A stretch of DNA of 64,000 bases, taken from NCBI RefSeq assembly GCF_001457475.1, contig NZ_LN831029.1, positions 3,844,001-3,908,000 on the forward strand, read 5' to 3'. The translations under genes were made by a program, and so were the position numbers. Shown piece by piece: positions 19,386 to 42,225 of this stretch. Source of the DNA: Achromobacter xylosoxidans (GTDB lineage Bacteria; Pseudomonadota; Gammaproteobacteria; Burkholderiales; Burkholderiaceae_B). The notes beneath the pieces are model-generated. The model was not told the DNA's origin. It saw nothing but the letters and a program-made list of their open reading frames with translations, and did no database searches. Within the stretch, counting starts at the first letter, position 1, and every line of letters starts with the position of its first letter.

Positions 19386-19406
19386 TTTCCAAGCCAGGAG
19401 CACAAC

Positions 19407-20090: not shown

Positions 20091-20150
20091 TACGCGCACT
20101 GATGACCAGTGACAGAATGAGGCCGATTTTGCGGATTGCTCACTTTTTTG

Positions 20151-20864: not shown

Positions 20865-20909
20865 AAGCAACCAAGATCTTGGGGAGCTGGCAAAACGCTA
20901 TCTCAGATC

Positions 20910-21524: not shown

Positions 21525-21559
21525 TGTGCGCTCCTGTATCGGCGTTCCGTGAAAATCTT

Positions 21560-27263: not shown

Positions 27264-27267
27264 GGCG

Positions 27268-27498: not shown

Positions 27499-27570
27499 GG
27501 GTTACCTATCGGATATTGCTCGGCTGGGCCTGGCGCGCTGCGGCGGGCACAATGCCGGCATGCAGTCAGC

Positions 27571-28218
27571 TCAAGGGGAAGGCGGAAAAGGAACGTTCGG
27601 TGCGGGCGCAGCACTCACGGCAGCGCATTCACGAGCCGCGCTGATAGCTGCGCGGCACATCGCGGCGGCAGTCAGCACCGTCAGAATGGCGAAATGGGAG
27701 CGGTCGCCAGGCGGCAGCCACTGGTCCAGCTCGTCGGCGAGCGCCTGCTGTACGCGGGCAGGCCCATCCGGCAACGTCTGTACGTGCAACAGCGCCGTAC
27801 CCGCGACATGCCGATCGGTGGAGAACCGCGGCAACGGGAAGGGCCAGGTTTCGAGGGATTCCGCGGGGATGCCGAAAACTACCTCCGCGACAGTGCGATC
27901 GAGCGCCAGCGCGGCGTCGTTCGGCCCGAGCTGGACCGGGGCGTCGGGACGACCGACCGGGCGAGTTAGCGCGGCCTCGGGGTCATCCCATGCGTCGAGG
28001 ATCTGTTCGGCCACATGTTCCGCGAACCGGCCGCCATTTCTCAGGCGTGTCACCATGCCCAGCGTGTACGCGAGCCTCGGCGCCAGACCGTTGGTCAGCA
28101 TCGAACCCTCGGGGAAGCCCTCGGCCTGGCCGTTCGACCAGATGCGGAACGTGTGGCCCGAAGGCGCCACGACTTCGAAGAGCGGCGCCGGGGTCGCGCC
28201 TCCGGTTGCGTCATCCAT
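27571..28218 (-). CDS. Phage early protein of unknown function
   Basis: 215 residues from ATG 28218 (GGGGGAG just upstream); ATG 28230 is an alternative. The start is beta (LFEVVAPSGHTFRIWSNGQAEGF), the middle mixed, and the end Ala/Cys-rich and hydrophobic (AILTVLTAAAMCRAAISAA), possibly one membrane helix or packed helix. Part of the leftward early operon. Not recognised. Confidence 0.65.
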   Translation of the reverse strand: MDDATGGATPAPLFEVVAPSGHTFRIWSNGQAEGFPEGSMLTNGLAPRLAYTLGMVTRLRNGGRFAEHVAEQILDAWDDPEAALTRPVGRPDAPVQLGPNDAALALDRTVAEVVFGIPAESLETWPFPLPRFSTDRHVAGTALLHVQTLPDGPARVQQALADELDQWLPPGDRSHFAILTVLTAAAMCRAAISAARECAAVSAAPAPNVPFPPSP

Positions 28219-28307
28219 GGACTCCCCCATGACGAATCTTGGCGGCCAGCTCCCTCCGACTATGATTTGCCCACCCACTGAGCAATTCATTTTGGAAGGA
28301 ACTGACC

Positions 28308-28565
28308 ATGGAAAAACCGGCACGAGAACTATCGGCCGTAGAGGGGCGCGTCGACGCTTTGACGATCGCATTGCGCGCGATGGTGGCTGTGCTGCCAGAG
28401 GAATACGCGAAAGCATTCGCCGCGCAGTTCCAGCACGACCTCGGACGATTCGAGGACATGGTCATGTCGATGCCCGCCCCGGACGACTATTTTGTTGGGC
28501 TGCGCAGCGTTCAGGACAAATGGCTCGCTGGCTTTCCCGGTTTTCCTGCGCCAGACGGGAAGTAG
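28308..28565 (+). CDS. Small helical protein opposite the early operon
   Basis: 85 residues from ATG 28308, with AGGA seven bases before. Mainly helical (VEGRVDALTIALRAMVAVLPEEY). It is transcribed against the leftward early genes and overlaps the 3' end of the 28462-28806 gene by 104 bases. Less GC-rich than its neighbours. A regulator or antisense-linked gene is possible. Confidence 0.6.
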   Translation: MEKPARELSAVEGRVDALTIALRAMVAVLPEEYAKAFAAQFQHDLGRFEDMVMSMPAPDDYFVGLRSVQDKWLAGFPGFPAPDGK

Positions 28566-28806
28566 CCATTTCGACCATGTCGCGCCAAGTAGGCTCGTCC
28601 CCATGCCGGGCATCTTGCCTATTTCGGCTCACAAAGGCGGACAGCCTCCGCCGCGTCGGTCGCCGCCCCTGCAAAAAGCCTAGGAAAGCCTGCGCGTCCT
28701 TGAGGACGTCGCGCGCGCGGATTGGCGTGTTTTCCCCGGCGCGGCGCGTTACCGCGAGGTGCAGCGCGAACTCGACCGCCTTGGCGCGGATGTGGGCGTC
28801 ACGCAT
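28462..28806 (-). CDS. Small basic phage early protein
   Basis: 114 residues from ATG 28806, overlapping the cro-like stop (28799). Helical N-terminus (MRDAHIRAKAVEFALHLAV), Arg-rich middle (LQGRRPTRRRLSAFVSRNRQ). The last 34 codons overlap the opposite-strand gene. The basic charge could mean nucleic-acid binding. No family recognised. Confidence 0.55.
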   Translation of the reverse strand: MRDAHIRAKAVEFALHLAVTRRAGENTPIRARDVLKDAQAFLGFLQGRRPTRRRLSAFVSRNRQDARHGDEPTWRDMVEMATSRLAQENRESQRAICPERCAAQQNSRPGRAST

Positions 28807-29074
28807 GCTCCACCCCCTCGGCCAGGGTGGCGCCGCCATCTCCGGCGGGCCCATCTACGCCGGCCGGTTCGGCCTTGGCCGATGCGGCCTTCCGCTCGAA
28901 ATAGTCGTGAAGCGCCTGGACGGTCTGCACGCGGGGATTTTTCACCTCTCCGTAGCGCAGCTTTCGCACCGTGCTTTCCGGCACACCAGACCCTTCCGCA
29001 ACAGCGGGAAGGTCGGGAAATCGAACAGCGCTCAGGCGCGCGAGGACAGATGAAAGAAATGTGGGCTCGTTCAT
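28799..29074 (-). CDS. cro: Cro-like repressor
   Basis: 91 residues from ATG 29074. Residues 20-60 form a Cro/CI-type helix-turn-helix (LPAVAEGSGVPESTVRKL then GEVKNPRVQTVQAL); the rest is a flexible Ala/Gly-rich tail. It is divergent from the repressor, with the operators between them. The predicted promoter would put the transcript start almost at the ATG, so a leaderless message is possible. It would hold down the repressor during lytic growth. Confidence 0.75.
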   Translation of the reverse strand: MNEPTFLSSVLARLSAVRFPDLPAVAEGSGVPESTVRKLRYGEVKNPRVQTVQALHDYFERKAASAKAEPAGVDGPAGDGGATLAEGVEHA

Positions 29075-29086
29075 GCGCCGCATTTT

Positions 29087-29157
29087 CAACCCATATTTGG
29101 GTTGGCGTCAACCCGCATAATGGTTGCGAGCCTTGGCATAGTTCCATTTATGGGTAA
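29087..29157. promoter_or_regulatory. Right-type operator cluster with three CI/Cro sites
   Basis: Three 18-bp sites: 29087-29104 (CAACCCA-TATT-TGGGTTG, perfect 7-bp arms), 29109-29126 (CAACC/GGTTG arms) and a weaker 29140-29157. A -35-like TTGACG reading left (29111-29106) and a -10-like CATAAT reading right (29116-29121) lie among them, suggesting overlapping promoters for cro and cI. The third site covers the cI start codon. Confidence 0.75.
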
Positions 29158-29587
29158 AAAATCAGCTGCGGAGGTTGTCGGCGCAAACCTTGACCGACTC
29201 ATGACCGAGGCTGGCCTTTCCAACGTGACGTTGGAAAGCCGGCTGTCTCGACGCGTCACGAAGTCGACCATAGGGCGCATGCGCAACGCGGAAATCAGTG
29301 CCGGCATCGACAACGTCGAGGAGGTCGCGCGCGCATTTGGCCTAGAGGCTTGGCAATTCTTGATCCCTGACGTCTCGGCGGTGCATAAACCTCGCCTCGC
29401 CGGGAGTTCGCCGACGGCCGACTCGGGAATGGCGTCGCTGAGCGCAGCAGACTCCGAACTGCTGGCGCTGTTCAACCAGCTGGACGACGTTTACCGGGCG
29501 TTGCTCCTTGCGGACGCCAGGAAGTACCTGCAAGTGCAGCAGCCTGCTATCAAAAGTCCCCCTGCCAAAAGGGCTAGTTCGTCCTAA
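29150..29587 (+). CDS. CI-like phage repressor without protease domain
   Basis: 145 residues from ATG 29150, just after the operator cluster; upstream ATG 29120 and TTG 29102 are alternatives, and none has a good ribosome site. The N-terminal part is a helix-turn-helix of the lambda repressor class (LMTEAGLSNVTLESRLS, VTKSTIGRMRNAE), followed by a linker and a helical C-terminus that could dimerise. There is no LexA/CI Ser-Lys peptidase domain, so classical RecA-driven cleavage is not expected. Confidence 0.8.
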   Translation: MGKKSAAEVVGANLDRLMTEAGLSNVTLESRLSRRVTKSTIGRMRNAEISAGIDNVEEVARAFGLEAWQFLIPDVSAVHKPRLAGSSPTADSGMASLSAADSELLALFNQLDDVYRALLLADARKYLQVQQPAIKSPPAKRASSS

Positions 29588-29686
29588 CATCCGACTCGTT
29601 TGGTCGAATGGGCGCGCAGTATGCGGCTCCCAATTCGTCGTCTGGGGAAAAAAATTTGTCCCCCTTGAAACAAATTTGATCGAAAC

Positions 29687-30220
29687 ATGAACAGACTTTA
29701 TCTAGTAGTGTGTTCGTTCGCCGCCGTCAGCGTGCTCGTCGGCTGCGCCTCCCCGAAGACATATTCCTCCGTTCAACAGCCGACCGGCACCGAACTTACA
29801 GCCGACCTCTCGACGGTAATGCTTCGTGAGACGCGCACGGGCGATTTGCCCAATGCCTTCGGCAATGCCGACGTGTTTGGACGTAAGGTGGATAAGGGCT
29901 CGCGGTCGATCTTCTATCAGGGCTTGCGCGAAGATGGCGCAGTGGTTCTAAGGGTGGTCACTATCGACGTTGTTTCAAACGAGACAACCATGAACCGCAC
30001 GGCGATGTCTGTGACGACCGCGTCGGCTTATACGGTCGGAAATCAGGCCTACGGCTCCGCCGTAACGACTCATTCCACGGCCGGAAGAACCGAGTCCCTT
30101 CCTCCGAACGCAGCCGACCTCGTTGTGCGCCCGCCTTGGCCAGCGCCAGTGGAATGGGGCGGTCACAAGCTCGAGATCCGATCAGCCAGTCCAGCATCCG
30201 TCACCTACATCATCAAGTAA
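29687..30220 (+). CDS. Lipoprotein cargo gene behind the repressor
   Basis: 177 residues with a lipoprotein signal: MNRLYLVVCSFAAVSVLVGC, lipid-modified Cys at 20. The mature part is beta-type, rich in Ser, Thr and Val. The gene follows cI with a 99-base AT-rich gap (29588-29686, which holds no other gene and may carry its own promoter) and ends at a strong terminator. Because it is co-oriented with the repressor it should be expressed in the lysogen, as with lysogenic-conversion lipoproteins. Receptor masking or superinfection exclusion is an inference. Confidence 0.8.
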   Translation: MNRLYLVVCSFAAVSVLVGCASPKTYSSVQQPTGTELTADLSTVMLRETRTGDLPNAFGNADVFGRKVDKGSRSIFYQGLREDGAVVLRVVTIDVVSNETTMNRTAMSVTTASAYTVGNQAYGSAVTTHSTAGRTESLPPNAADLVVRPPWPAPVEWGGHKLEIRSASPASVTYIIK

Positions 30221-30233
30221 ACGAACCAACGCG

Positions 30234-30259
30234 GGCCGCCCCAGGCGGCCATTTTTTTT
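30234..30259 (+). terminator. Intrinsic terminator after the lipoprotein gene
   Basis: Stem GGCCGCC/GGCGGCC with a three-base loop followed by A and eight T. It closes the cI-lipoprotein unit and separates it from the rightward early promoter. Confidence 0.9.
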
Positions 30260-30265
30260 CCATCG

Positions 30266-30336
30266 CGACCCATTTGTGGGTTGACTAACCCGTTTTTGGT
30301 CTGTAAATTTCCTTCCGTCGACCCATTTGTGGGTCA
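30266..30336. promoter_or_regulatory. Left-type operator cluster with three CI/Cro sites
   Basis: Three 18-bp sites like those next to cro: 30266-30283 (CGACCCATTTGTGGGTTG), 30286-30303 (TAACCCGTTTTTGGTCTG) and 30319-30336 (CGACCCATTTGTGGGTCA). They cover the predicted rightward early promoter, so the repressor should shut it in the lysogen. Confidence 0.78.
30281..30309 (+). promoter_or_regulatory. Rightward early promoter
   Basis: TTGACT (30281-30286), 17-base spacer, TAAATT (30304-30309). The -35 overlaps the first operator and the spacer contains the second. It would drive the recombination-integration operon from 30356. Confidence 0.6.
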
Positions 30337-30355
30337 TCAAAGACGAGAGGAAGCC

Positions 30356-30700
30356 ATGCTTTCCACGCACGCGGCCCCCGCCGCCATCAGCCAGGCGGCA
30401 AACGCCGACAGCTACTCGCTGGTCCACCTTGCGCCGCCGACGCTCTCCGACGCCGACGTTCTCAGCGTCCTCTGCGACCTGTTCGCCGGCCGCGCCGCTA
30501 CCGCCTTCGGCGAGTCCTTGGAGTGGTGGGCGGAGACGTTTCAGTGCGACCTGGCCGCGAAGGCCGCCGGCGGCGTGGTGCTGGCGGCGATCAGCAAGTG
30601 GCCCTTCGATCAGCGCGCCGGCGCCGAGGGCGTTGAGCAGCTGCAGGCCGAACTGGTCAAGCGCGCCCGCCAGATCCTGGCCCGCGGGGTGCAACCGTGA
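30356..30700 (+). CDS. Phage early protein of unknown function
   Basis: 114 residues from ATG 30356 after GAGGAAGCC, the first gene after the rightward promoter. Acidic-aromatic centre (GESLEWWAETFQCDL) and a helical end (VEQLQAELVKRARQIL). First position suggests an early regulator or anti-host factor. Not recognised. Confidence 0.7.
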   Translation: MLSTHAAPAAISQAANADSYSLVHLAPPTLSDADVLSVLCDLFAGRAATAFGESLEWWAETFQCDLAAKAAGGVVLAAISKWPFDQRAGAEGVEQLQAELVKRARQILARGVQP

Positions 30701-30804
30701 CCGGCGCCCTGATCCTCGTTCCCGTCGCCTATGTCATGGCGCGCGGGATCGACTTCATCGCGGCCGTCCTGCGCCGCACCGATCCCTGGAGCCCGACCGT
30801 ATGA
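30697..30804 (+). CDS. Very small membrane protein
   Basis: 35 residues from GTG 30697, overlapping both the previous stop and the next start (ATGA). One hydrophobic segment (ALILVPVAYVMA) is followed by a basic end. The perfect operon overlaps support its reality despite the size. Confidence 0.5.
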   Translation: MTGALILVPVAYVMARGIDFIAAVLRRTDPWSPTV

Positions 30805-31301
30805 CGATCCAAGTCCTTGGCGTCGACCCGCGCAGCCGGAGCAAGACCCAGCTGACCGCGCCCGCCCCCCTTCCCTACGTTTCCCGCCGCGCGTTGGCGC
30901 GCGTGCGCGATCGCATCGAACCGCCCAAGGCGTGCCACTGCTGCGGCGGCCCGGTGAAGCTGACCAACAACCGTGACATCTACGGCGGGCAGTCCTTTGG
31001 CGCGTGGCCTTATGTCTACCGGTGCGCGCAGTGCCAGGCCTACGTCGGCCTGCACCCTGACACGGATCTGCCGCTGGGCATCATGGCCACCAAGGCAACT
31101 ATCCAGGCGCGCAAGGTCGCCAAGGCCGATTTCCTGGCGCTGGTCGGCGAACGGTATGCAGGCAAGCAGAGCGCCGCCTATGCCTGGCTCGCGCGCGCTT
31201 TGACCATTTCGCCGTCCATCTGCCATTTCGGCATGTTCACCGAACAGCAGGCCGGCCGCGCCGGCGAAGTCTGCCGCCTCGCACGCGAGGCCCGCCAATG
31301 A
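30801..31301 (+). CDS. Zinc-finger-containing protein (DUF3268 type)
   Basis: 166 residues from ATG 30801. Zinc site C45-x2-C48 and C75-x2-C78 around an IYGG strand, then the typical AYVGLHPDTDLPLG and a helical rest with AKADFLALVGERY. This matches the phage zinc-finger family DUF3268. Nucleic-acid binding is likely; exact role unknown. Confidence 0.8.
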   Translation: MTIQVLGVDPRSRSKTQLTAPAPLPYVSRRALARVRDRIEPPKACHCCGGPVKLTNNRDIYGGQSFGAWPYVYRCAQCQAYVGLHPDTDLPLGIMATKATIQARKVAKADFLALVGERYAGKQSAAYAWLARALTISPSICHFGMFTEQQAGRAGEVCRLAREARQ

Positions 31302-31507
31302 GCGCCGCCACCATCTGGGTGCTGTTCGCCTTCCTCCCGGCGGGCCACGACCGCCCGCCGGTCATGCGCATCGAGCGGTTCGAAACCGCTGCGGAATGCG
31401 AGCGCGTCCGCGCGATCTTCCCCCGAAACATCACCACCGTCTTTACCTGCCTGCCCAGCCGCCAGATCCGCGCAGGGCAGCGCCTGCCCCTGGAGCCCCG
31501 CCAATGA
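31298..31507 (+). CDS. Small phage protein
   Basis: 69 residues, ATGA overlap at the start. A hydrophobic start (AATIWVLFAFLPAG) is probably a signal-like or membrane segment, followed by MRIERFETAAECERVRA with one Cys and TTVFTCLPS with a second. A small periplasmic protein with a disulfide is possible. Confidence 0.6.
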   Translation: MSAATIWVLFAFLPAGHDRPPVMRIERFETAAECERVRAIFPRNITTVFTCLPSRQIRAGQRLPLEPRQ

Positions 31508-31788
31508 AGCCCACCCGCAAGCTGGTCCGCGCCGACGGCACGGACACCGAATTGCACGGCCCGCACGCGCTGATCGACGTCCGCCAGCTCATCGGCGCCG
31601 ACGCCCTCGAGATAGTCAGCCTCGGCCAGCGCCAGCACGCCATGCTCATCGACCAGTCGGCCGACGCCAAGGGCCTGCCGGTCAACGCCGCGGCGTCCCA
31701 TCTGTACCAGGCTGCGCGCGGCGAGCCGCGCCCCATCCACGGCGATGTCGTGATCGTGCCCGACACCGACTACGCGAGGGAAGCATGA
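31504..31788 (+). CDS. DUF3846-like phage protein
   Basis: 94 residues from ATG 31504. The order of I-D-V-R-Q-L-I-G, MLIDQSADAKGLPVNAAAS and GDVVIVPD fits DUF3846 proteins, in which a strand pair surrounds a conserved glycine-lysine-glycine-leucine-proline turn. Overlaps neighbours by four bases on both sides. Function unknown in the family. Confidence 0.7.
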   Translation: MKPTRKLVRADGTDTELHGPHALIDVRQLIGADALEIVSLGQRQHAMLIDQSADAKGLPVNAAASHLYQAARGEPRPIHGDVVIVPDTDYAREA

Positions 31789-31973
31789 TCCGCCGCCTCC
31801 GCATCGTCTGGCGCCGCGCGCGCCGCACGGGCCGCGACCTGGACGCGGCTTCCTACGCAGCCGGCATCGTCGGCGGCGTGATCTTCCTGGCCGCCATGAC
31901 CGGCGTGCTGGGCCCGACACTCGACGCCCAGCGCCACCATCAGGCCGGTGCCGAGCGCCACGCCTCTCGCTGA
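31785..31973 (+). CDS. Small single-span membrane protein
   Basis: 62 residues. A very basic N-terminus (RRLRIVWRRARRTGR) is followed by one membrane helix (YAAGIVGGVIFLAAMTGVL), so the N-terminus is probably cytoplasmic. ATGA overlap with the preceding gene. Not recognised. Confidence 0.6.
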   Translation: MIRRLRIVWRRARRTGRDLDAASYAAGIVGGVIFLAAMTGVLGPTLDAQRHHQAGAERHASR

Positions 31974-31987
31974 ACGGAGCTGCTGAC

Positions 31988-32791
31988 ATGGAACCCAAGA
32001 TTTTCACTGTCCGCGCCTCCAGCTGGGGCCGCCTGTTCGACTGCGCTCACGCTTGGGAAGGCACGCACATCCTGGGCATGAAGAAGCCCGCCGGCGTGCG
32101 CGCGCTGCTGGGCACCGCCGTGCATGCTGGCACGGCCGCGTTCGACCGCGCCCGCCTGGACGGCACGGACTGCACGCCCGACGATGCCGCCGGCGTCCTG
32201 GTGGACGAGCTGCGCAACCCTGCCCAGGACGTCGACATGGCGCAGGACGGCCTGTCCATCGACGAGGCCGAGCGCATCGCCCTGGTGGTGCTGGTCAAGT
32301 ACTGCGCCGAAATCGCGCCCCGCTTCGAGTACATCGACGTCGAGACGACGCTGGACCCGCTCAATATCGACTGCGGCAACGGCATGACCGTGCGCCTGAC
32401 CGGCACCATGGACCGCGCCCGAGTGGCCGCGACCGAGGGCGGCATCGTAGTGCCCGACGTCAAGACTGGCACGCGTGTCCTGGTCGACGGCAAGGCAGTG
32501 ACCCAGGGCCGCGCCGCACAGACGGGCACCTACCAGCTCATGTACGAGGCCACCAAGAAGGTCACGACGGTCGGATCGCAAATCATCGCCCTGTCCACCA
32601 GCAGCCGGCCGGCCGCGGCCGTGAGCCCCATTTTCGACGCCCGCCGCGTGATGGTCGGCGAGCCCGACAAGCCCGGCCTGCTCGAACACGCTGCGGCGAT
32701 GTTCCGCACCGGCCTGTTTCCCCCGAACCCCTCCAGCGTCCTGTGCAGCCCCAAGTACTGCGCGCGCTGGTCGTCCTGCCTTTTCCGATAA
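31988..32791 (+). CDS. Cas4/RecB-type PD-(D/E)XK exonuclease
   Basis: 267 residues. Nuclease motifs: GTAVHAG with His46, GTMDR (139-143), PDVKTG (156-161) and QTGTYQ (178-183). Cys19 plus Cys253, Cys258 and Cys264 are placed like the four iron-sulfur ligands of Cas4 and AddB. It precedes recT by one small gene, so it probably resects ends for RecT annealing, as in other phage exonuclease-annealase pairs. Confidence 0.82.
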   Translation: MEPKIFTVRASSWGRLFDCAHAWEGTHILGMKKPAGVRALLGTAVHAGTAAFDRARLDGTDCTPDDAAGVLVDELRNPAQDVDMAQDGLSIDEAERIALVVLVKYCAEIAPRFEYIDVETTLDPLNIDCGNGMTVRLTGTMDRARVAATEGGIVVPDVKTGTRVLVDGKAVTQGRAAQTGTYQLMYEATKKVTTVGSQIIALSTSSRPAAAVSPIFDARRVMVGEPDKPGLLEHAAAMFRTGLFPPNPSSVLCSPKYCARWSSCLFR

Positions 32792-32806
32792 CCAGAGGAG
32801 CCCCGC

Positions 32807-33028
32807 ATGTCCCTTCACCCCGTCAGCCGCGACGTGTTCGTCCGGCGCACCGATCAGGCCGGCAAGTCGGTCGTGACCCAGCACCTGGCCTGGGATCCCG
32901 CCCAGTTCTTGGTCAGCCAAGTCGAGCAGTACCACCGCGACGCCAAGCCCGAGGAGCGCCAGACCGTCGCGCTCGCCACCGCCGCGGAGTACCGCGACTA
33001 CCGCAACAGCCACAAGCAAGGACGCTGA
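32807..33028 (+). CDS. Small phage protein between exonuclease and recT
   Basis: 73 residues, charged, with DVFVRRTDQAGKSVVTQHLAW at the start and a helical, Arg/Glu-rich end. Good ribosome site (AGAGGAG). Its place suggests an accessory of the recombination pair. No family recognised. Confidence 0.65.
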   Translation: MSLHPVSRDVFVRRTDQAGKSVVTQHLAWDPAQFLVSQVEQYHRDAKPEERQTVALATAAEYRDYRNSHKQGR

Positions 33029-33030
33029 TT

Positions 33031-34242
33031 ATGACTCAGACCACCACCGTTCAGAGCCTGCGCGCGGCGCCCGAAGCTCAGATGCCTGTCGTCGCCCCCG
33101 GATTCGGCAGCTTGCAGAGCTTCGAGCTGATGCAGCGCGCCGCCAACCTTCTGGCCAGCAGCACCCTGGTGCCGGCGCAATACCGCAAGGTCATCGAGAA
33201 GCTGGACAAGTACGGCAACGTCAAGGAATCGCGCGAGAACCCCAACGCCCTTGCGAACGCCGTTGTGGCGCTGAACATGGCGCAGCGCATGGGCGCCGAC
33301 CCGCTCATGGTCATGCAAAACCTTTACATCGTCGAGGGCCGCCCGTCCTGGTCCTCGCAATGGATCATCGCGGCCGTCAACGGCTGCGGAAGGTTCTCCC
33401 CGCTACGCTTCGATATCAAGGTCCTGGGCCCCAAGGCCATCGACTACAAGTCGACCTACTGGGAAGCCGGTGAACGCCGCAGCAAGGTCGAGAAGGTCGA
33501 AATCGTCGACAAGGTCTGCGTAGCCTGGGCGATCGAGAAGGAAACCGGCGAGCGCCTGGAATCGCCCGCCGTGTCGATTGAAATGGCGGTGCGCGAGGGG
33601 TGGTACACCAAGACTGGCAGCAAGTGGCAGACCATGGACGAGGTCATGCTTCGCTACCGCACGGCCAGCTTCTTCGGCAAGCTCTATGCACCGGAACTGC
33701 TGATGGGCCTGCAGACGGTCGAGGAAGCGCAGGACATCATCGAGGCAACGGCTGGCCCGGATGGCACGATCAGCGTGAACGTGGACGAACTGCGCGCCAA
33801 TGCAGCGCCCGCGCAGCGTCAGCCGTCGGCCGCGCCCGCCGACGTCACCGATGTGGAAAGCCGGGACGCACAACAGACTGCGCAAGTCGACACCGCTCCC
33901 GCGCAGGCGCAAGCCGAGGCCGGTAATCCGGCGCCGCGCGCGGCTACGGCCGCCAAGGCCTCGTCCGAGCCGCAGGCCAATCCCAGCGAGCAGGGCCAAG
34001 CCGAACTGCCCAACGCTGGCAACGAAGGCGGCGGCCTGGATCCGGCCAAGGTGGAACACCAGATCCAATACGCCAAGACCATCGATGTCCTGGACTTGGC
34101 CAGCGACTCGATCGACGGCGTAGACGACCTTGGCGAGCGAGCCCGGCTGCACCAGCTGTACCAATCGCGCCGCCTGTCTCTCACGTCCGAGGCCCAGCGC
34201 GCTGGCAGCACGCGGCGCCGCAGCGTCCAGGCGCCCGAATAA
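33031..34242 (+). CDS. recT: RecT-family ssDNA annealing protein
   Basis: 403 residues from ATG 33031. The RecT signature covers ~35-250: AVVALNMAQRMGADPLMVMQNLY, then WSSQWIIAAVNGCGRF, and a later VMLRYRTASFFGKLYAPELLMG. After ~250 comes a Pro/Ala/Gln/Asp-rich linker, then a conserved helical tail (LGERARLHQLYQSRRLSL) that may bind SSB or the partner nuclease. RecT anneals homologous single strands in phage recombination. Confidence 0.9.
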   Translation: MTQTTTVQSLRAAPEAQMPVVAPGFGSLQSFELMQRAANLLASSTLVPAQYRKVIEKLDKYGNVKESRENPNALANAVVALNMAQRMGADPLMVMQNLYIVEGRPSWSSQWIIAAVNGCGRFSPLRFDIKVLGPKAIDYKSTYWEAGERRSKVEKVEIVDKVCVAWAIEKETGERLESPAVSIEMAVREGWYTKTGSKWQTMDEVMLRYRTASFFGKLYAPELLMGLQTVEEAQDIIEATAGPDGTISVNVDELRANAAPAQRQPSAAPADVTDVESRDAQQTAQVDTAPAQAQAEAGNPAPRAATAAKASSEPQANPSEQGQAELPNAGNEGGGLDPAKVEHQIQYAKTIDVLDLASDSIDGVDDLGERARLHQLYQSRRLSLTSEAQRAGSTRRRSVQAPE

Positions 34243-34257
34243 GGCCAGGTGACCGAC

Positions 34258-35418
34258 ATGGCTTTGTTCCGCAACCTCTCGGTCTACAGCCTACCCGGCG
34301 GGTGGGCCGTATCCCTGCCCCAGCTGGTCGGCATGCTGGAGCAGCATCAATTCGTGCCCACGACCGACCTGCAGGCCGAGTCCACCGGCTGGGCGCCGGT
34401 TCACGAGGGCTACGGGCTCGTGCACGAGGTGCAGGGCCATCTGCTGCTGCGCCAACGCACCGAATCGCGCGTGATGCCCACCAAGGCGATCGACCTGCAG
34501 GTGCAAGAAGCTGCGGCGAAGGTCGAGGAGGCCCAGGGCTACAAGCCCGGCAAAAAGCAGCGCAAGGAGATCCGCGAACGGGTCATCGACCAGATGCTGC
34601 CCGCGGCGTTCCGGCAGCAGGACGATGTGCTGGTCTGGATCGACACCTACGCCGGCCGCCTGGGAATTGACAGCGCCTCGAGCGGCCCGCGCGACGCCGC
34701 GGTCGCCCTGCTGTGCGAGAGCATCGACCACTTCGCGCTTGACCGCCTGTCCGTGCGCACGGCGGCGGCCGGCGCGATGACTGCCTGGCTCGCCGATGAT
34801 GAGGCGCCGGAAGGCTTCACCATTGACACGCTGGCGGACCTGCGGGCGGCGGGCGAAGGCGCCGGCGCCGTGCAGTACGTCAATCGCCCCCTGGACCCTG
34901 CGGAGGTGCGCCACCACATCCAAAGCGGCATGCAGTGCACTCGCCTCGCCCTGACGTGGCAGGACCGCATCTCGTTCGTGCTGGATGACGAACTGGTGCT
35001 GAAACGCATCGTCCCCGCCGACGTCGTGCAGATGGACGTCGAACGCTCCGCCAAGACGGAAGCCGAGGAATTCGAGGCTGATTTTTTCCTCATGGCGACC
35101 ACCTTGCGCGGCCTGGTGGCCGACCTGGTCGACGCCCTGGGCGGCGAATACGTCGACGACCGCCAAGCGGACATGTTCCGCACCAGCACCGGCCCGGCCC
35201 TGCGCGCCGACGACACCGACGACGACGGCGACGACCCGCTGCTGGCAGAAGCCCGCCGCGTGGTGGTCGAGAACCGCCGCGCGTCCATTTCCCTTGTTCA
35301 GCGCCATCTGCGCATTGGCTACAACCGCGCCGCGTCGCTTCTCGAAGCCCTCGAGCTGCGCGGTGTGGTGACGGCCATGCGCCCTGATGGTGGCCGTGAA
35401 TTGCTTGCCATCTCCTGA
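34258..35418 (+). CDS. rdgC: RdgC fused to an FtsK-gamma-like DNA-binding domain
   Basis: 386 residues from ATG 34258. Residues 1-300 follow RdgC throughout: MALFRNLSVYSLPGGWAV, LLRQRTESRVMPT, QGYKPGKKQRKEIRE, GAMTAWLADDEAPEGFTID, QCTRLALTWQDRISFVL. After an acidic linker (DDTDDDGDDPLL), residues 325-386 match the FtsK gamma winged helix (ENRRASISLVQRHLRIGYNR, AASLLEALELRGVV). RdgC normally ends near residue 300. RdgC forms a DNA-encircling ring that opposes RecA; the added domain suggests sequence-directed loading. It sits between recT and an SMC-like ATPase. Confidence 0.9.
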   Translation: MALFRNLSVYSLPGGWAVSLPQLVGMLEQHQFVPTTDLQAESTGWAPVHEGYGLVHEVQGHLLLRQRTESRVMPTKAIDLQVQEAAAKVEEAQGYKPGKKQRKEIRERVIDQMLPAAFRQQDDVLVWIDTYAGRLGIDSASSGPRDAAVALLCESIDHFALDRLSVRTAAAGAMTAWLADDEAPEGFTIDTLADLRAAGEGAGAVQYVNRPLDPAEVRHHIQSGMQCTRLALTWQDRISFVLDDELVLKRIVPADVVQMDVERSAKTEAEEFEADFFLMATTLRGLVADLVDALGGEYVDDRQADMFRTSTGPALRADDTDDDGDDPLLAEARRVVVENRRASISLVQRHLRIGYNRAASLLEALELRGVVTAMRPDGGRELLAIS

Positions 35419-35427
35419 GGAGCAACC

Positions 35428-37212
35428 ATGCGAATCAACCGTATCACCGTCGAGAACTTCCAGGGCGCCCGCGCCGTGGACCTGCAGTTGCCCACCCCGC
35501 TCGCGCTGGTGTCGGGCCTGAATGGCGCCGGCAAGTCGACCGTCGCCGAAGCCGTCCGCCTGGCGCTGCAGGGCACGCCGGAACGGGTCGGCCTGAAAAA
35601 AGAGTACGACATGCTGGTCAGCGACGGCGCGAAGCTGGGCGCGGTGACCGTGGAACTGGACGCCGGCGCCGTGTCGATGACACTGCCCAAGGGCGTGGCG
35701 GATGGCCAGGACCTGGTGCCGACCAGCCCGGCCCTGCCCTTCGTCCTGGCGCCCGAACGCTTCGCCCAGGCCGAGGCCAACGACCGGCGCAGCCTGCTGT
35801 TCACGCTGACCGGCGCGAAGATCCGCCCCGACGATATCGCCGCCCGCCTGCTGGCCCGGACATGCAACGCCGAGCTGGTGACCCAGATCAAGCCCATCCT
35901 GCGTACCGGGTTCGCCGCGGGCTCAAAGTACGCCAAGGACCAGGCCACCCAGGCCAAGGGTGCCTGGCGCACCGTCACCGGAGAAGCCTACGGTGAGGTC
36001 AAGGCCAAGGACTGGGCGGCCGACGAGCCCGCGTTCGACCGCGCGGCACTCGAGAACACCGGCGCGGAGCTGGCCGGCCTGGACGAACGCATCGAGGCGA
36101 CGGCGCAATCGCTGGGCAAGCTGGTGCAGAAGGCCGAGGCCTACGCGGCGGCGCGCGATCAGCTGGCCGCGCGCCAGGCCAAGGCGGCGCGCCTGCCCGA
36201 GCTGAACCGCAAGCTGGAATACGACCTTGCCGAGCATGGCAAGGCAGTCGCGCACGTCGAAGCGCTCCAGCTGCGCGCTGGCGCCGGCCCGCGGACGGGC
36301 CTGGTGCACGAACTGGCCATCTGCCTGGACGACGTCTACAACTGCGAGAAGGTGACCCTGCTGCTGCCCGGGCCGCTCGATATGCGGATCCTCGAAGTGC
36401 TGGAGCGCTACGAGGTCCAGTACGGGAAGCTCGACGCCCCCGGCGACGCCGAAGCCGCGGGCGCGCTGCCCAAGGCCATCGATGCCCGCGAGCTGATGGC
36501 GCGCAGCGTGGAAAACGACCGCCGCGATATCGCCGCCGCCCAAGAAGCCGCAGCCAGCTTGGAAGCCGTGAACGCTCCGGAGGCGATCGACACCGCCGAC
36601 GTCGAAGCCGTGCGCGCGCAACTCAACGCCCTCAAGGAGCAGCGCAAGGAAGTGCACGAGCGGGTGCAGGCGCTGCTGAACGCCAAGCAAGCCGCCGACA
36701 GCGCGAAACAGCGCACCGCCAACGCAGCGCAGTACCACGGTGAGGTACAGGCCTGGGCCAAGATCGGCGACGCGCTGGCGCCCGACGGCATCCCCGGCGA
36801 AATCCTGGCCGAAGCCCTGCAGCCGATGAACGACCGTCTCGCTCACCTGGCCAGCCTGGCCAACTGGCCGGCGGTGGCGATCGCCGGCGACATGGCCATC
36901 ACCTACGGCGGCCGCGCCTATCGGCTTCTGTCCGAGTCCGAGCGCTGGCGCACCGACGCCCTGATCGGGCTGGCGCTGGCCGCCCAGTCCGGGCTGCGCT
37001 GCGTGCTGCTGGACCGCTTCGATTGCCTGGATCAGCCAGGCCGCGGCGACCTGCTGGGGCTGCTCGACACTCTGGCCGCCGACGGCGAACTCGACACCGC
37101 CCTGGTGCTGGGCACCCTGAAATCCGCCCCGCCCGCCCCCACCGACCTTTTCACCAGCCACTGGATCGACCACGGCACCAACGCCCAGCCCGCGCTGCGC
37201 GCCGCCGCCTGA
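35428..37212 (+). CDS. SMC/Rad50-like ATPase
   Basis: 594 residues. Walker A GLNGAGKST (30-38), a coiled-coil middle (about 190-460, with broken heptads), a signature-like LLSESERWRTDALIGLALA near 510 in place of LSGGE, and Walker B CVLLDRFDCLDQ. The layout matches phage ATPases of the RecF/SbcC/Rad50 group. It has no nuclease domain itself; the DnaQ-type exonuclease gene follows 15 bases later and may be its partner. Confidence 0.85.
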   Translation: MRINRITVENFQGARAVDLQLPTPLALVSGLNGAGKSTVAEAVRLALQGTPERVGLKKEYDMLVSDGAKLGAVTVELDAGAVSMTLPKGVADGQDLVPTSPALPFVLAPERFAQAEANDRRSLLFTLTGAKIRPDDIAARLLARTCNAELVTQIKPILRTGFAAGSKYAKDQATQAKGAWRTVTGEAYGEVKAKDWAADEPAFDRAALENTGAELAGLDERIEATAQSLGKLVQKAEAYAAARDQLAARQAKAARLPELNRKLEYDLAEHGKAVAHVEALQLRAGAGPRTGLVHELAICLDDVYNCEKVTLLLPGPLDMRILEVLERYEVQYGKLDAPGDAEAAGALPKAIDARELMARSVENDRRDIAAAQEAAASLEAVNAPEAIDTADVEAVRAQLNALKEQRKEVHERVQALLNAKQAADSAKQRTANAAQYHGEVQAWAKIGDALAPDGIPGEILAEALQPMNDRLAHLASLANWPAVAIAGDMAITYGGRAYRLLSESERWRTDALIGLALAAQSGLRCVLLDRFDCLDQPGRGDLLGLLDTLAADGELDTALVLGTLKSAPPAPTDLFTSHWIDHGTNAQPALRAAA

Positions 37213-37227
37213 CACAAGGACCACGAC

Positions 37228-37842
37228 ATGCAAAACCTGGGATTCTTCTACGACACCGAAACCACCGGCCTGCCGCAGTTCAAGGAGCCGTCTGGACACC
37301 CCGGCCAGCCCCACATTGTGCAACTGGCCGCGGCGCTGGTCGACCTGGACTCGCGCGAGACGGTCGCCAGCCTGGACCTGGTCGTCCGGCCGGACGGCTG
37401 GATCATCCCCGATGAGGTCACCGAGGTCCACGGCATCACCACCGAGTACGCCCTGGCGGTGGGCGTGCCCGAGACGCTGGCCCTGTCCCTGTTCCTGGAA
37501 ATGTGGGCCGGACGCAAGCGCATCGCACACAACGAGTCCTTCGATGCCCGCATCATCCGCATCGCCCAGCACCGCGCCGGCGAGCTGGAGCACGACCTGG
37601 AACGCTGGAAGGCCGGCACGGCCGAATGCACCGCACGCCTGGCCACGCCCATCCTGAAACTGCCGCCCACCGCCAAGATGGTGGCCGCCAATCGCCACCA
37701 CTACAAGACGGCAAACCTGAGCGAGGCGGTGCTGTTCTTCACCGGCAAGCCGCTGGAGAACGCGCATAGCGCCTTGGCGGACGTGCGCGGCTGCATGGAC
37801 GTCTATTTCGGCATCCAGGACCTGCAAAGGGAGGCCGCGTAA
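37228..37842 (+). CDS. DnaQ-type 3'-5' exonuclease
   Basis: 204 residues. DEDDh motifs: Exo I DTETTG (9-14), Exo II IAHNESFDARII with Asp, and Exo III AHSALADVRGC with His and Asp. An insertion around residues 120-150 lengthens it compared with the host epsilon subunit core. A role in phage DNA recombination or editing is likely because of its neighbours. Confidence 0.9.
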   Translation: MQNLGFFYDTETTGLPQFKEPSGHPGQPHIVQLAAALVDLDSRETVASLDLVVRPDGWIIPDEVTEVHGITTEYALAVGVPETLALSLFLEMWAGRKRIAHNESFDARIIRIAQHRAGELEHDLERWKAGTAECTARLATPILKLPPTAKMVAANRHHYKTANLSEAVLFFTGKPLENAHSALADVRGCMDVYFGIQDLQREAA

Positions 37843-37844
37843 TC

Positions 37845-38333
37845 ATGCATCCCTACATGAACCGCCACGACCGGCGCCAGGCCCGGCGCGCCGAGGGCCG
37901 ACGGCCTCGGGCGGGGCGCATGGCGCGTCCCATGGCCGCCCCGATGATTATGGGCTCAGAAATCGTGATGCGCCCCCTGGAACAGCTGTTCGACGAGCTG
38001 GACCGGACCGGCAAGGTGTCGGTCAACGCCAAGGGCTACCCGACCTTCGTGGCCTGCGACGGCCACAAGTACGAGGCCGCGCCCGCGATCGAAGGGCTGA
38101 TCTGGCACTTCGAGATGTGGAGCATCCGCCACGCCAAGGAACTGCCGCTGCAGCCCCTGCGTGATCTGTACATCGCGCTGCACTACCTGGTGCCGATCCA
38201 GGAACGCACTATCGAAGGCCTGCGGCACGCACTGCCGATACTGCGCCGTGTGATCGCCTTGGGCCAGCGCGACGACCAGGGCGACCTGTTCCACCAAACC
38301 CGCATCAAGATCGCCATGGAGGCGCAGGCATGA
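37845..38333 (+). CDS. Phage protein of unknown function
   Basis: 162 residues. Highly basic first 35 residues (NRHDRRQARRAEGRRPRAGR), then a mixed domain with LEQLFDELDRTGKVSVNAKGY and a helical C-terminus. Two bases separate it from the exonuclease gene. Possible nucleic-acid binding; not recognised. Confidence 0.65.
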   Translation: MHPYMNRHDRRQARRAEGRRPRAGRMARPMAAPMIMGSEIVMRPLEQLFDELDRTGKVSVNAKGYPTFVACDGHKYEAAPAIEGLIWHFEMWSIRHAKELPLQPLRDLYIALHYLVPIQERTIEGLRHALPILRRVIALGQRDDQGDLFHQTRIKIAMEAQA

Positions 38334-39082
38334 GCAAGATCGAAAACACCTGGCGCCTGGCCCCGGTGGCCGCTGCACAGCACGAGCTGGCCGAGGTTCG
38401 CGCCGCCCTCGGCTTTCTTCCCCAAGGCTATACCGCCATGGCTGGCCTGGAGCGCCTCGCCGACCTGCTGGCGGCCGCGGAGCCTTCACCGACCTCGCCT
38501 GCAGTCAGCACCGAACAGGATGCCCCGATCACCGTTACCGTGGACCATGATCCGCGCGGCGTCAGCGTTGGCGTGTGGCAGGGATCGCACTGCATCTACA
38601 GCGGGGCGCATCCGCTGCCCGCCGCCGCTGGCCTATCCACGGCGGCGCACACCTACGGCGCCCCGGCTGAGGTGGCGGTGCGCATCGAGAACTACCTCAC
38701 CCACAACGGCCAGGAAAACTCGGTGAGCCTGCTGCTGTACGAGGCCATGAAAGCGCTGCGCGCTCCCGCTGCTGCCGATGTGCAAACCGCTGCCGCCCGC
38801 GACGTTCTGGCCGAGCGCCAGCGACAGATCAGCGTCGAAGGCCGGACGCCGGCGCATGACGACCAATACACCGCCGGCGACATGGCGAGTGCGGCGGCGT
38901 GCTACGCCGCCCAGGGTCGCCACCACTATCCGGAGCCGGGCCGCCCTGGACCGAGCTGGCCCTGGGCCGCCGAATGGTGGAAGCCCTCGACGTATCGCCG
39001 CAATCTGGAAAAGGCCGGCGCCCTGATCCTGGCTGAAATCGAGCGTTTGGACCGTGCAGCGCAACGCGCGGGGGATGCCTAA
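38330..39082 (+). CDS. Phage protein with ERQRQ...WPW...KAGALILAEIER module
   Basis: 250 residues. The C-terminal ~95 residues (DVLAERQRQISVEGRTPAHDD, WPWAAEWWKPST, NLEKAGALILAEIERLD) are a module found in many phage proteins and often at the end of unrelated domains. The N-terminal part has a helical segment and a beta centre of unclear fold. Overlaps both neighbours. Function unknown. Confidence 0.75.
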   Translation: MSKIENTWRLAPVAAAQHELAEVRAALGFLPQGYTAMAGLERLADLLAAAEPSPTSPAVSTEQDAPITVTVDHDPRGVSVGVWQGSHCIYSGAHPLPAAAGLSTAAHTYGAPAEVAVRIENYLTHNGQENSVSLLLYEAMKALRAPAAADVQTAAARDVLAERQRQISVEGRTPAHDDQYTAGDMASAAACYAAQGRHHYPEPGRPGPSWPWAAEWWKPSTYRRNLEKAGALILAEIERLDRAAQRAGDA

Positions 39083-39555
39083 TGGCCCTGCCCTACAGCA
39101 CCGCGACCAGCGGCGAGAAGGCACTTGGCGAGATCCAGAAGCTGCTGCGCGCCTTCGGCTGCAGCAAGTTCGGGAGCATGGTGGACGACGGCGCCGGCGA
39201 GCTGCTGGTGCAGTTCGAATACCGGGGCCGCCAGGTTTCCGTGAAGGCATCGACGAAGGGCTACGCCGCGGCCTGGCTCAAGGAGAACCCGTGGAGTCAT
39301 CGCCGCACCGGCACGCGGGCCCAGTACGAGAAAAAAGCCATGGACGTGGCGAGCGTCGCCGTGTATTCGATCCTGCGCGATTGGATCAAAGGCCAGATCA
39401 TGGCCATCGAGACTGGCATCCTCTCGTTCGAAGGCGCGTTTCTCGGTCAGATCATGCTGCCGACGGGCCATACCGTGCTGGAGCATGCAGCGGCGGCCAA
39501 CCTTCTGCCGGCGCCGGACGGCGGCCAGCAGAGCCGCCAGGCCGCGGAGGTGTGA
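39082..39555 (+). CDS. Phage protein of unknown function
   Basis: 157 residues. N-terminal alpha/beta part (ALGEIQKLLRAFGCSKFGSM, then LLVQFEYRGRQVSVKAST) and a helical middle (AVYSILRDWIKGQIMAIETG). Start overlaps the previous stop. Likely an early accessory protein; not recognised. Confidence 0.7.
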   Translation: MALPYSTATSGEKALGEIQKLLRAFGCSKFGSMVDDGAGELLVQFEYRGRQVSVKASTKGYAAAWLKENPWSHRRTGTRAQYEKKAMDVASVAVYSILRDWIKGQIMAIETGILSFEGAFLGQIMLPTGHTVLEHAAAANLLPAPDGGQQSRQAAEV

Positions 39556-39557
39556 AC

Positions 39558-39839
39558 ATGGCAGTCACCATCACTGATCATGCCGACGCCCGCCTGAAAG
39601 AGCGTCTGGGCCTGCCGAAGTCGGCCCGCGCTGCTGCCGCGCAGCGCGCCTTCGATCAAGGCAAGCGGCACGGCGACGCGGCCGGGAAGCTCAAGCGCTT
39701 CTTGGACAAGTGCTGGCTCCAGCACCGCAAGGCCAACAACGTCCGCATCCACGCTGAACACATCTGGTTTTTCGCCCACGAAACCCTGGTGACCGTCTAC
39801 GAGGTGCCCAGGAACATGCGCGCGGGCGCAAAGGACTGA
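39558..39839 (+). CDS. Small basic phage protein
   Basis: 93 residues from ATG 39558. It starts ITDHADARLKERLGLPKS and ends in a beta pattern (RIHAEHIWFFAHETLVTVYEVP), the shape of small RelE-like or mRNA-related folds, but without a partner antitoxin gene. The call is left open. Confidence 0.65.
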   Translation: MAVTITDHADARLKERLGLPKSARAAAAQRAFDQGKRHGDAAGKLKRFLDKCWLQHRKANNVRIHAEHIWFFAHETLVTVYEVPRNMRAGAKD

Positions 39840-39842
39840 ACT

Positions 39843-40586
39843 ATGAATGAACAGAACAACATCGCGCAGCCGGCGATTGTCGTCACGCTCACTCGCACCC
39901 TGGGTGCGTATGGCGCAGCGTTTGACCTCCCCGGACCGCACCGGGCATTTACGTACCACCACCAGCCGGGGAATATCGGGGCGCACCGCCTCGGTGCCGC
40001 TTGGCAAAAGGCAGCCAGCGGTAGTTCGGGCGACCTCATCGACAGAGGGCTGGGGCTGCTCAAGGCCCTACAGGAGGTCGGGTTCGGTGTCTTTGAGGTG
40101 TCGGAAATTGCCGCCCCTGTAGCCGAAGAGCGGGCTGCATGCCCTACCGACGTATGCAAAGCCGGGCAGGCCGATGCCGTGCTGTGCGCGAACGACGAGT
40201 GCGACCGCGCCAACGGGGTGCGGCCGCCCATGTGCCGCATCCCCGGGGTCCGCGAGGACGTGCTGCGACGCGCCGCCCTGGCAAGCGCCCCTGTAGCCGG
40301 GGAGCCAGTGGGCGTCGTGCAGCCCAACGGCAATACCTTCCGTCTTTCGCGGCCGCTGCCGGCGGGCACCAAGGTCTATGCCGTGCCCCAGGCCAGCGCC
40401 GAGGCGGGCGATGATGAGCTGGTTTACTTGGGCGCCACAGCGCCGCCTGTGCCGGCGTGGCTGCTGAAAAGCGCGCGGCGCATCAGCCACTACATGGCGA
40501 CGCATCACCCCGGCGAGTGGGCCATCTACGGGATTCAAATCCGGCGCGAGCCCAAGGCTTCCGCACAAGGAGGCATCAGTGGCTGA
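39843..40586 (+). CDS. Phage protein of unknown function, mosaic
   Basis: 247 residues made of three parts: an N-terminal domain (IVVTLTRTLGAYGAAFDLPG), a Cys-containing middle, and a C-terminal part with LKSARRISHYMATHHPGEWAIYG. Ala/Pro-rich joints suggest a modular, frequently recombined early protein. Overlaps the next gene by eight bases. Confidence 0.6.
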   Translation: MNEQNNIAQPAIVVTLTRTLGAYGAAFDLPGPHRAFTYHHQPGNIGAHRLGAAWQKAASGSSGDLIDRGLGLLKALQEVGFGVFEVSEIAAPVAEERAACPTDVCKAGQADAVLCANDECDRANGVRPPMCRIPGVREDVLRRAALASAPVAGEPVGVVQPNGNTFRLSRPLPAGTKVYAVPQASAEAGDDELVYLGATAPPVPAWLLKSARRISHYMATHHPGEWAIYGIQIRREPKASAQGGISG

Positions 40587-41580
40587 GAACAGTAAGATCG
40601 AATGGACCGACCATACTTTCAACCCGTGGGAAGGCTGCCAGAAGGTCGGGCCCGGCTGTGACCACTGCTACGCAGAGACGCGCAACGCCCGCTTCGCCGG
40701 CGGCCGGGCTATCAACTGGGGGCCGGGCGCGCCACGCCGGCGGACCAGCGCCGCCAACTGGCGCAAGCCGCTGTCCTGGAACGGCAACCCATTCTACCAA
40801 TGCCTGGACTGCGGATGGCGTGGACACGGCGCGGGCAAGATCAACGGGGGCCTGCCGGTCTGCCCGGTGCCGAAATGCGCTTCCCTGAGGCTGGCCCCGG
40901 CCCGAGCGAGGGTGTTCTGCGCCAGCCTGGCTGACGTCTTCGACAATGCCGTGGACCCGGCCTGGCGCGAGGATCTTTACGGGCAGATCGAGGCCACGCC
41001 CAACCTGGACTGGCTGCTGCTGACGAAACGTATCGGCAACGTGGGCAACATGCTGCCTGTGCCGTTCGACTTCGACCGGATGTATCCCAACGTCTGGATC
41101 GGCGCCACCATCGTGAATCAAGCCGAGGCCGACCGAGATATCCCCAAGCTGCTCGAGTTGCCGGCGCGCGTTCGCTTCCTGAGCATGGAACCGCTACTCG
41201 GGCCGGTCGACCTTGGCGCCGGCTGCCGGCGCGCTGGGTTGCACCTGGGCGAGGCTCTGGACTGGGTAATCGTCGGCGGCGAGAGCGGCCCCGGGGCACG
41301 CCCCATGCATCCGGCCTGGGCCGCCAGTCTGCGCGACCAATGCCAGAACGCTGGAGTGCCGTTCCTGTTCAAGCAGTGGGGTGACTGGGCGCCTGGATCT
41401 GGGGATTTCGGCGCCGGCGGCTATGACACCGCGGCGGTCGCCTGGGATGGCCGTGTCGCACGCGACGACTACCCGGTCGGCGCAACGAGCGCGGACGGCT
41501 GGTCGATGGTTCATCGGCCGGGCAAGGTGGCAGCCGGCCGGCTGCTCGATGGCCGCGAATGGAACGAGGTGCCGCAATGA
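40579..41580 (+). CDS. Phage Gp37/Gp68 family protein (DUF5131)
   Basis: 333 residues from GTG 40579. The family's opening SKIEWTDHTFNPWEGC continues with three cysteines (C20-x6-C27-x2-C30) in radical-SAM-like spacing. Other blocks: FCASLADVFD, LDWLLLTKR, VWIGATIVNQ, VRFLSMEPLLGPVD, WVIVGGESGPGARP, PFLFKQWGDW. A likely zinc ribbon (C75-x2-C78, C95-x4-C100) is inserted between the first and second block. Activity of the family is not established; an Fe-S cofactor is inferred. Confidence 0.85.
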   Translation: MAENSKIEWTDHTFNPWEGCQKVGPGCDHCYAETRNARFAGGRAINWGPGAPRRRTSAANWRKPLSWNGNPFYQCLDCGWRGHGAGKINGGLPVCPVPKCASLRLAPARARVFCASLADVFDNAVDPAWREDLYGQIEATPNLDWLLLTKRIGNVGNMLPVPFDFDRMYPNVWIGATIVNQAEADRDIPKLLELPARVRFLSMEPLLGPVDLGAGCRRAGLHLGEALDWVIVGGESGPGARPMHPAWAASLRDQCQNAGVPFLFKQWGDWAPGSGDFGAGGYDTAAVAWDGRVARDDYPVGATSADGWSMVHRPGKVAAGRLLDGREWNEVPQ

Positions 41581-42224: not shown

Positions 42225-42225
42225 C

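Follow-up and report, generated by a model that had tools for sequence, protein, structure and literature searches.

The role of RdgC is unsettled. RdgC homologues are reported to form ring-shaped dimers and to bind DNA without sequence preference, and the Escherichia coli protein is described as lowering the activities of RecA (PMC11077077). The gamma domain of FtsK is known as a reader of the polar KOPS motif, and one KOPS is reported to be bound by three gamma domains, loading the FtsK motor to one side (PMC5052618). The same report gives R1289 as the main XerD contact, within a surface shared with KOPS binding, and describes how recombination at dif is promoted by fusing gamma to XerC or to XerD, and even by placing a 9-residue gamma stretch on XerC (PMC5052618). 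Changing R1300, E1303 and E1306 together is reported to leave E. coli FtsK blind to KOPS, with E1303 and E1306 contributing to the reading, and FtsK altered in the E1303/E1306 region is said there to support Xer recombination still (PMC2680272). Here we describe a prophage gene, rdgC-gamma, whose predicted product joins the two proteins, RdgC at the N terminus and an FtsK gamma domain at the C terminus.

The gene lies in a window of 64,000 nucleotides, the whole stretch of DNA analysed, which corresponds to positions 3,844,001-3,908,000 of the 6.81-Mb Achromobacter xylosoxidans genome (Table 1). The reading frame as listed spans 34249..35418 from a GTG, and the start annotated for the counterpart in Achromobacter phage CF418P1 matches the ATG at 34258. 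A preliminary description had proposed a phage RdgC fused to FtsK gamma, and profile searches bore this out: RdgC is matched at full length over residues 3-297 (PF04381, E 3.6e-86, 289.6 bits against a Pfam cut-off of 25) and FtsK_gamma completely (PF09397, E 3e-20, 72.1 bits against a cut-off of 30.6), and the 62-residue tail searched alone gives FtsK_gamma at E 1.7e-21. The linker between the two is acidic and 27 residues long. Only RdgC and FtsK_gamma were matched among Pfam profiles up to E 1, with no motor ATPase domain, and Terminase_2 was not found in the Pfam search. The solved relatives by sequence are 2owl and 2owy for the RdgC part and 2j5o and 2ve8 for the gamma part, the PDB relatives of the latter starting at E 1.4e-18. 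A sequencing frameshift joining two genes, an artefact that the preliminary description had considered, is ruled out since an identical unbroken frame is found in CF418P1 (99% over 386 aa) and in another genome, G214 (99% identity), and since both Pfam domains are present in 119 of the best 120 of 801 homologues (8000 candidates scored), P0005 being the sole exception. The host genome has one other RdgC, without gamma, and one other gamma, within FtsK. Two of the homologous fusions, P0070 and P0103, share a similar short segment, NLH...FGA, which precedes gamma in one protein and follows it in the other.

Table 1. Features of the window around rdgC-gamma; positions are counted from the first letter of the window.
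Feature	Position	Strand	Basis or remark
Prophage portion in window	1..43729	+	limits inferred from repeat and CF418P1 match
PD-(D/E)XK exonuclease, same operon	31988..32791	+	PF12705
RecT-like single-strand annealing protein	33025..34242	+	phrog_561, E 1.9e-81
rdgC-gamma gene	34258..35418	+	386 aa + stop; ORF call, Pfam, CF418P1 counterpart
RdgC domain, residues 3-297	34264..35148	+	PF04381 profile 2-298/298; 2owl
GGGNAGGG (KOPS motif) inside rdgC-gamma	34313..34320	-	motif search
Acidic linker, residues 298-324	35149..35229	+	sequence and Pfam domain limits
FtsK gamma winged-helix domain, residues 325-383	35230..35406	+	PF09397 profile 3-61/63
SbcC/Rad50-like ATPase, directly 3' of rdgC-gamma	35428..37212	+	phrog_77, PF13476
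GGGNAGGG (KOPS motif) inside SbcC-like gene	35732..35739	-	same codons in many relatives
DnaQ-like exonuclease (DNA polymerase exonuclease subunit)	37228..37842	+	phrog_192
Tyrosine integrase of prophage	42441..43655	+	PF00589
Right attachment repeat, 33 bp	43697..43729	+	left copy starts ahead of window, at genome position 3828621

The surrounding prophage measures 59.1 kb (genome positions 3,828,621-3,887,729) and is bounded by 33-bp direct repeats, with the integrase near one end. The order of genes around the fusion, exonuclease, RecT, RdgC-gamma, SbcC-like ATPase and DnaQ, is that of a predicted recombination operon; the RecT-like protein has no Pfam match. Exonuclease, RecT and ATPase also flank the fusion in G275, G205, G222, G221 and G214, and the fusion of G353 is outside an operon of this type, only RdgC and one other gene being matched. 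Among 80 IMG/VR loci, a RecT/ERF gene was found upstream of 54 of the 68 gamma-bearing RdgC genes vs. 2 of the 12 without gamma (Fisher P = 5e-5), as judged with neighbour profiles seeded chiefly from gamma-bearing loci. After dereplication to 38 representatives the counts are 22/32 and 2/6 (Fisher P = 0.17), and only two supported independent pairs show the association. Because the loci are the best 80 of 583 from a scan in which RdgC and gamma were each represented by a single peptide pattern, the ratio 68:12 is not a frequency.

The position between RecT and the ATPase is not reserved for RdgC. We collected 140 loci around SbcC-like genes (80 from IMG/VR and 60 from named genomes) and omitted 11 partial ones; upstream of the SbcC-like gene, the remaining 129 have RdgC-gamma in 28 cases, another gamma protein in 16 and neither in 85. 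All 28 RdgC genes just upstream of SbcC-like genes bear gamma, and no gamma-less RdgC was found there in the 129 loci with an RdgC profile made from gamma-bearing members. Thirteen of the loci with neither were chosen for their nearness to the window's type: four have 14-16 bases between RecT and ATPase, and the other nine an open frame of 227-254 residues. The frame examined among these nine, that of L310, matches PHROG 6576 with the gamma part absent, and relatives with gamma are phi297 gp12, L330 and L406. A third type, L335:2688-3365, is a protein of 226 aa with a strong gamma and an unrecognised N-terminal part that differs from those of the other two; it directly follows RecT, upstream of the SbcC-like ATPase. 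In place of RdgC-gamma, the slot can be occupied by a different protein, gamma-bearing or gamma-less, or be empty. As RdgC, PHROG 6576 and the L335 type all bear gamma, at least three kinds of protein carry the domain beside phage annealing genes.

The survey also returned other proteins of note. PHROG 6576-like slot proteins match the ribosome modulation factor profile (PF04957) below its cut-off, in L310:3311-3994 (the best, 26 vs. a cut-off of 27.9 bits), L330:3084-4001, L349:3102-3992 and L406:7126-8001. Gordonia phage Bowser gp53 (L438:2856-3899), annotated as a RusA-like Holliday junction resolvase, contains FtsK_gamma at residues 271-329 (E 3.4e-23) and has no other Pfam match at E 0.01. 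A 170-aa protein of Vibrio phage 434O48-1 (L009:4177-4689) carries a C-terminal gamma, has no RdgC match and lies about 2 kb upstream of an integrase. Public records name such motor-less gamma proteins of phages "DNA translocase", as in OQ817832 (30165-31325) and in the phi297 gp12 family.

RdgC itself is present in 198 of the 207 genomes of the family, and the full fusion in at least seven (G000, G214, G275, G205, G222, G221 and G353); the 41 genomes that share the genus of the host account for at least five of these. Of 184 genomes sampled across the class, 62 contain RdgC (66 matches) and, judged by match counts per genome, one of the 66, the window's own, is followed by gamma among the matches listed. 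With the protein of phage PA8 as query, every one of the 148 genomes in the family of G145 gave a match, FtsK being counted as such, and among the matches listed one genome, G491, has an open, full-length RdgC-gamma. The fusion used as query matched 1102 plasmid records, and in 21 the match covered 80% or more of its length. All gamma-bearing RdgC copies whose neighbourhoods were inspected are in phage-like or plasmid stretches. The preliminary description had known of no described system of this kind, and we found no description of the fusion in the open-licence literature, but the architecture recurs in many phages and plasmids and is widespread, not unique.

Its origin was not single. In a phylogeny of 62 RdgC cores, of which 22 bear gamma and 40 lack it, the trait changes six times, five of the changes being forced by supported branches, and the tree does not separate gains of gamma from losses. 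A single origin with vertical descent of RdgC-gamma is rejected on these 62 cores (p-AU 1.9e-6). Nine rows had been omitted for long or doubtful branches, one duplicate (with gamma, Skulduggery, KLER1-1, pRhodan, pVariov, pBVIE05, pChromo and P0108; without gamma, L057 and L113); with all 71 rows in the tree there are seven changes, six of them forced. The fusion of G353 pairs with an RdgC from the same genome that lacks gamma (73% identity, support 100/99), and the RdgC of PA8, which is 81% identical to a gamma-less RdgC of G517 (family of G145), groups with a plasmid RdgC-gamma and a gamma-less RdgC of G145 (support 100/100). Phages F116 and PA8 share a block of 6.8 kb at a mean identity of 95%, ending in the 3' part of rdgC. 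Past it, PA8 has 0.28 kb comprising the linker and most of gamma (L150, 33584-33865) and F116 has 1.06 kb comprising nearly all of a gene for a "nucleoid associated protein" (L155, 8994-10056), after which identity resumes at 97%. The annotated RdgC proteins of the two phages are 64% identical over 278 residues, so that rdgC is less alike than the block around it. The gamma tail looks like a cassette, the alternative to which is another DNA-binding protein.

In the five genomes tested, the gamma of RdgC is always nearer the gamma of the genome's own FtsK than that of the window's RdgC, with values of 0.68 vs. 0.62 in G275, 0.67 vs. 0.62 in G205, 0.73 vs. 0.67 in G222, 0.65 vs. 0.62 in G221 and 0.60 vs. 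0.55 in G353. The gammas of PA8 and Skulduggery are likewise nearer that of Pseudomonas aeruginosa FtsK (0.68 and 0.63) than the window's (0.62 and 0.58). The window's own gamma scores 0.62 against host FtsK and 0.63 against P. aeruginosa FtsK over 60 residues, and its recognition core is nearer the host (0.82 vs. 0.68). A uniform host-likeness of gamma is rejected by two plasmids, pBVIE05 and pVariov, whose gammas are nearer the window's (0.67 and 0.55) than Achromobacter FtsK (0.62 and 0.48), here a stand-in for the FtsK of their own hosts. We read these patterns as repeated capture of the host's gamma; slow co-evolution with the KOPS of the host may explain them instead. Recurrence in phages and plasmids, together with an origin that was not single, suggests that phages give RdgC a DNA address.

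The residues that face DNA and XerD were counted, in E. coli numbering, in 82 non-redundant RdgC-gamma sequences, with 24 FtsK for comparison; as the 82 were drawn mainly from the best 120 of the search, most resemble the window's. R1289 and Y1295 are kept in all 82, Q1288 and N1296 in 81, E1306 in 77, E1303 in 75 and R1297 in 73. R1300, which E. coli FtsK requires to read KOPS, is kept in 58/82 vs. 24/24 FtsK; the window has S, E and E at positions 1300, 1303 and 1306, and R1289, the XerD contact, is present. In RdgC-gamma, the commonest residue has on average a share of 0.92 at positions 1282-1299 vs. 0.60 elsewhere, and 0.90 vs. 0.72 in FtsK. The recognition segment had earlier been called close to that of FtsK gamma, rightly so, as 20 residues of it are identical in host FtsK. 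Most of the gamma residues expected to read KOPS or to touch XerD are thus retained, but R1300 has been lost in the window.

Sites that such a domain could read are available in the host. Samples of 20 kb were taken on either side of the dif candidate: GGGNAGGG, the KOPS motif, is distributed 34:6 between the plus and minus strands in the ten that precede it and 2:36 in the ten that follow, and the change of polarity falls between the 3.07-Mb and 3.41-Mb samples. The best dif-like site, from a pattern search at up to 3 mismatches, is at 3,197,457 with 2 mismatches; the search also gave two weaker candidates at other places and two matches in the control. GGGNAGGG behaves as the polar motif of the host, flipping around this site. 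The preliminary description had also suggested targeting to XerCD/dif territory and, as one possibility, a guard of phage ends. Neither proposal is supported: a search for dif-like sites gave none in the window and, at up to 3 mismatches to the pattern, none in the rest of the prophage, the distance from the prophage to the dif candidate of the host is about 0.63 Mb, and KOPS motifs are spread over the prophage.

Polar KOPS in prophages of E. coli and Salmonella have already been reported (PMC5993296). We counted the motif in the first 50 kb of PA8, JBD90, Skulduggery, D3 and F116, in 40.9 kb of AchV4 and in the whole of the others. The plus:minus counts are 13:0 in CF418P1, 2:14 in the prophage, 0:7 in PA8, 1:9 in JBD90 and 2:0 in Skulduggery, all carriers of RdgC-gamma; 8:1 in phi297, with gamma and no RdgC; 7:0 in F116 and 0:4 in AchV4, with RdgC and no gamma; and 6:1 in D3 and 1:3 in SE2, with neither. 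Taken singly, the counts reach P values below 0.05 in just two cases, CF418P1 (P = 0.007) and the prophage (P = 0.038). Skulduggery (L151), a carrier of RdgC-gamma, has 2 copies of GGGNAGGG in its first 50 kb vs. about 6 expected, a possible avoidance. In IMG/VR representatives, the antisense:sense counts relative to rdgC are 71:14 for 32 gamma loci (28.9:15.7 expected from an order-3 Markov model) and 26:3 for six gamma-less loci (9.7:4.9 expected); another motif, GGNAGGGG, is likewise skewed in the gamma set (42:6). KOPS enrichment as a mark of gamma carriers is therefore rejected, polarity and enrichment being alike without gamma and seen in F116 and D3 too. The KOPS polarity of phages is real, but does not go with gamma. 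Phage DNA offers sites for the domain, with no sign that the phages were shaped by RdgC-gamma, and since polarity is equal in phages with gamma-less RdgC, it is no evidence for KOPS targeting. The interpretation in the preliminary description is partly supported: a phage RdgC with a genuine gamma stands, and the placing in XerCD/dif territory does not.

The KOPS within the SbcC-like gene falls on GCC-CTN-CCC codons at a conserved Ala-Leu-Pro and is present in 12 of 15 representatives, where codon usage predicts 0.22 each. In a wider set it is found in 11/13 genes with RdgC-gamma vs. 15/29 without (Fisher P = 0.084), and in G205 it is displaced by a few bases. This conserved site is a lead only and not clearly specific to RdgC-gamma.

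The reading we favour, with about even confidence, is that RdgC-gamma is a clamp addressed by gamma to KOPS-type DNA in the service of phage annealing recombination. The RdgC part would form a ring-shaped dimer around duplex DNA and hinder RecA as bacterial RdgC does, and the gamma part would bind GGGNAGGG both in the host chromosome, with its polarity, and in the host-like phage DNA, so that the ring would be loaded or held there in a fixed orientation. Beside the phage exonuclease, RecT/ERF and the SbcC-like ATPase, RecA could then be kept off chosen duplex DNA, favouring annealing; it is these adjoining genes that make the exclusion of RecA while phage annealing works a likely use. Gamma could instead be an additional winged helix that binds DNA without regard to sequence and raises the affinity of RdgC. 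The relaxed R1300 (58/82), the F116/PA8 exchange of the gamma tail for a "nucleoid associated protein" gene and a KOPS content that does not track gamma all fit this, but the reading stretch is far better kept than the rest of the domain (0.92 vs. 0.60), and we consider such a role unlikely.

Two further explanations turn on the partners of FtsK. RdgC-gamma might act through XerD, activating or occupying the host's XerCD, for instance to resolve multimers of phage or chromosome. The invariant R1289 (82/82) and the published effect of gamma fused to XerC or XerD, even as a 9-residue stretch on XerC (PMC5052618), speak for it, but our pattern search gave no dif-like site in the prophage, the phage encodes an integrase of its own, and E1303 and E1306, reported as dispensable for Xer recombination in E. 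coli FtsK (PMC2680272), are mostly kept; this function seems improbable to us. More improbable still is a decoy that would occupy chromosomal KOPS, block the loading of FtsK and disturb segregation or division during phage growth. A gamma resembling that of the host would contend with FtsK for its sites, and in 5/5 genomes the gamma of RdgC is nearer that of the genome's own FtsK than that of the window's RdgC; against this, a lone gamma would be enough for the purpose, the window's gamma is no nearer host FtsK (0.62) than P. aeruginosa FtsK (0.63, 60 residues), and the exonuclease, annealing protein and SbcC-like ATPase as neighbours point to recombination. A bolder extension of the addressed clamp, which we offer as a tentative and rather doubtful idea, is that phages repeatedly weld the host's polarity reader onto whatever protein occupies the slot (RdgC more than once, PHROG 6576 and the third type), and that phage recombination would thereby gain a strand direction, which gamma reads from KOPS, in a phage counterpart of Chi, with RdgC rings loaded one way wherever host or phage DNA bears the polar marks.

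A sequence reader on RdgC offers a direct route to ask where the ring is wanted and what it does, and RdgC proteins equipped in this way occur next to phage annealing genes in several distinct lineages of RdgC. Gamma is also found here outside the FtsK motor, inside recombination operons, where its carriers are often named "DNA translocase". Compared with bacterial RdgC (PF04381; 2owl of E. coli and 2owy of P. aeruginosa), the fusion has the same full-length domain, adds the linker and gamma, and sits in a phage recombination operon. Compared with FtsK, it gives the same complete winged-helix match (PF09397; P. aeruginosa 2j5o and 2ve8/2ve9), but the motor domain is lacking, gamma is attached to RdgC and R1300 is S; the CF418P1 counterpart is nevertheless annotated as an FtsK/SpoIIIE DNA translocase. 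The phi297-type proteins (PHROG 6576), often named "DNA translocase FtsK", occupy the same slot between RecT and the Rad50-like ATPase and carry gamma, but have no RdgC match and include the gamma-less relative L310. The FtsK-like proteins of cluster J mycobacteriophages also have a phage-borne, gamma-type C-terminal DNA-binding domain, but are reported to retain the motor domain, their gamma being described as unlike known bacterial gammas (PMC3706429). The small terminase of Bacillus phages Sam46 and Sam112 is likewise reported as a phage protein with gamma and conserved DNA-binding sites, gamma being N-terminal on a packaging protein there and C-terminal on RdgC here (PMC8190038). As gamma on a phage terminase and on phage FtsK-like proteins is already published, phage proteins with gamma are a known kind, of which the fusion to RdgC is a further form.
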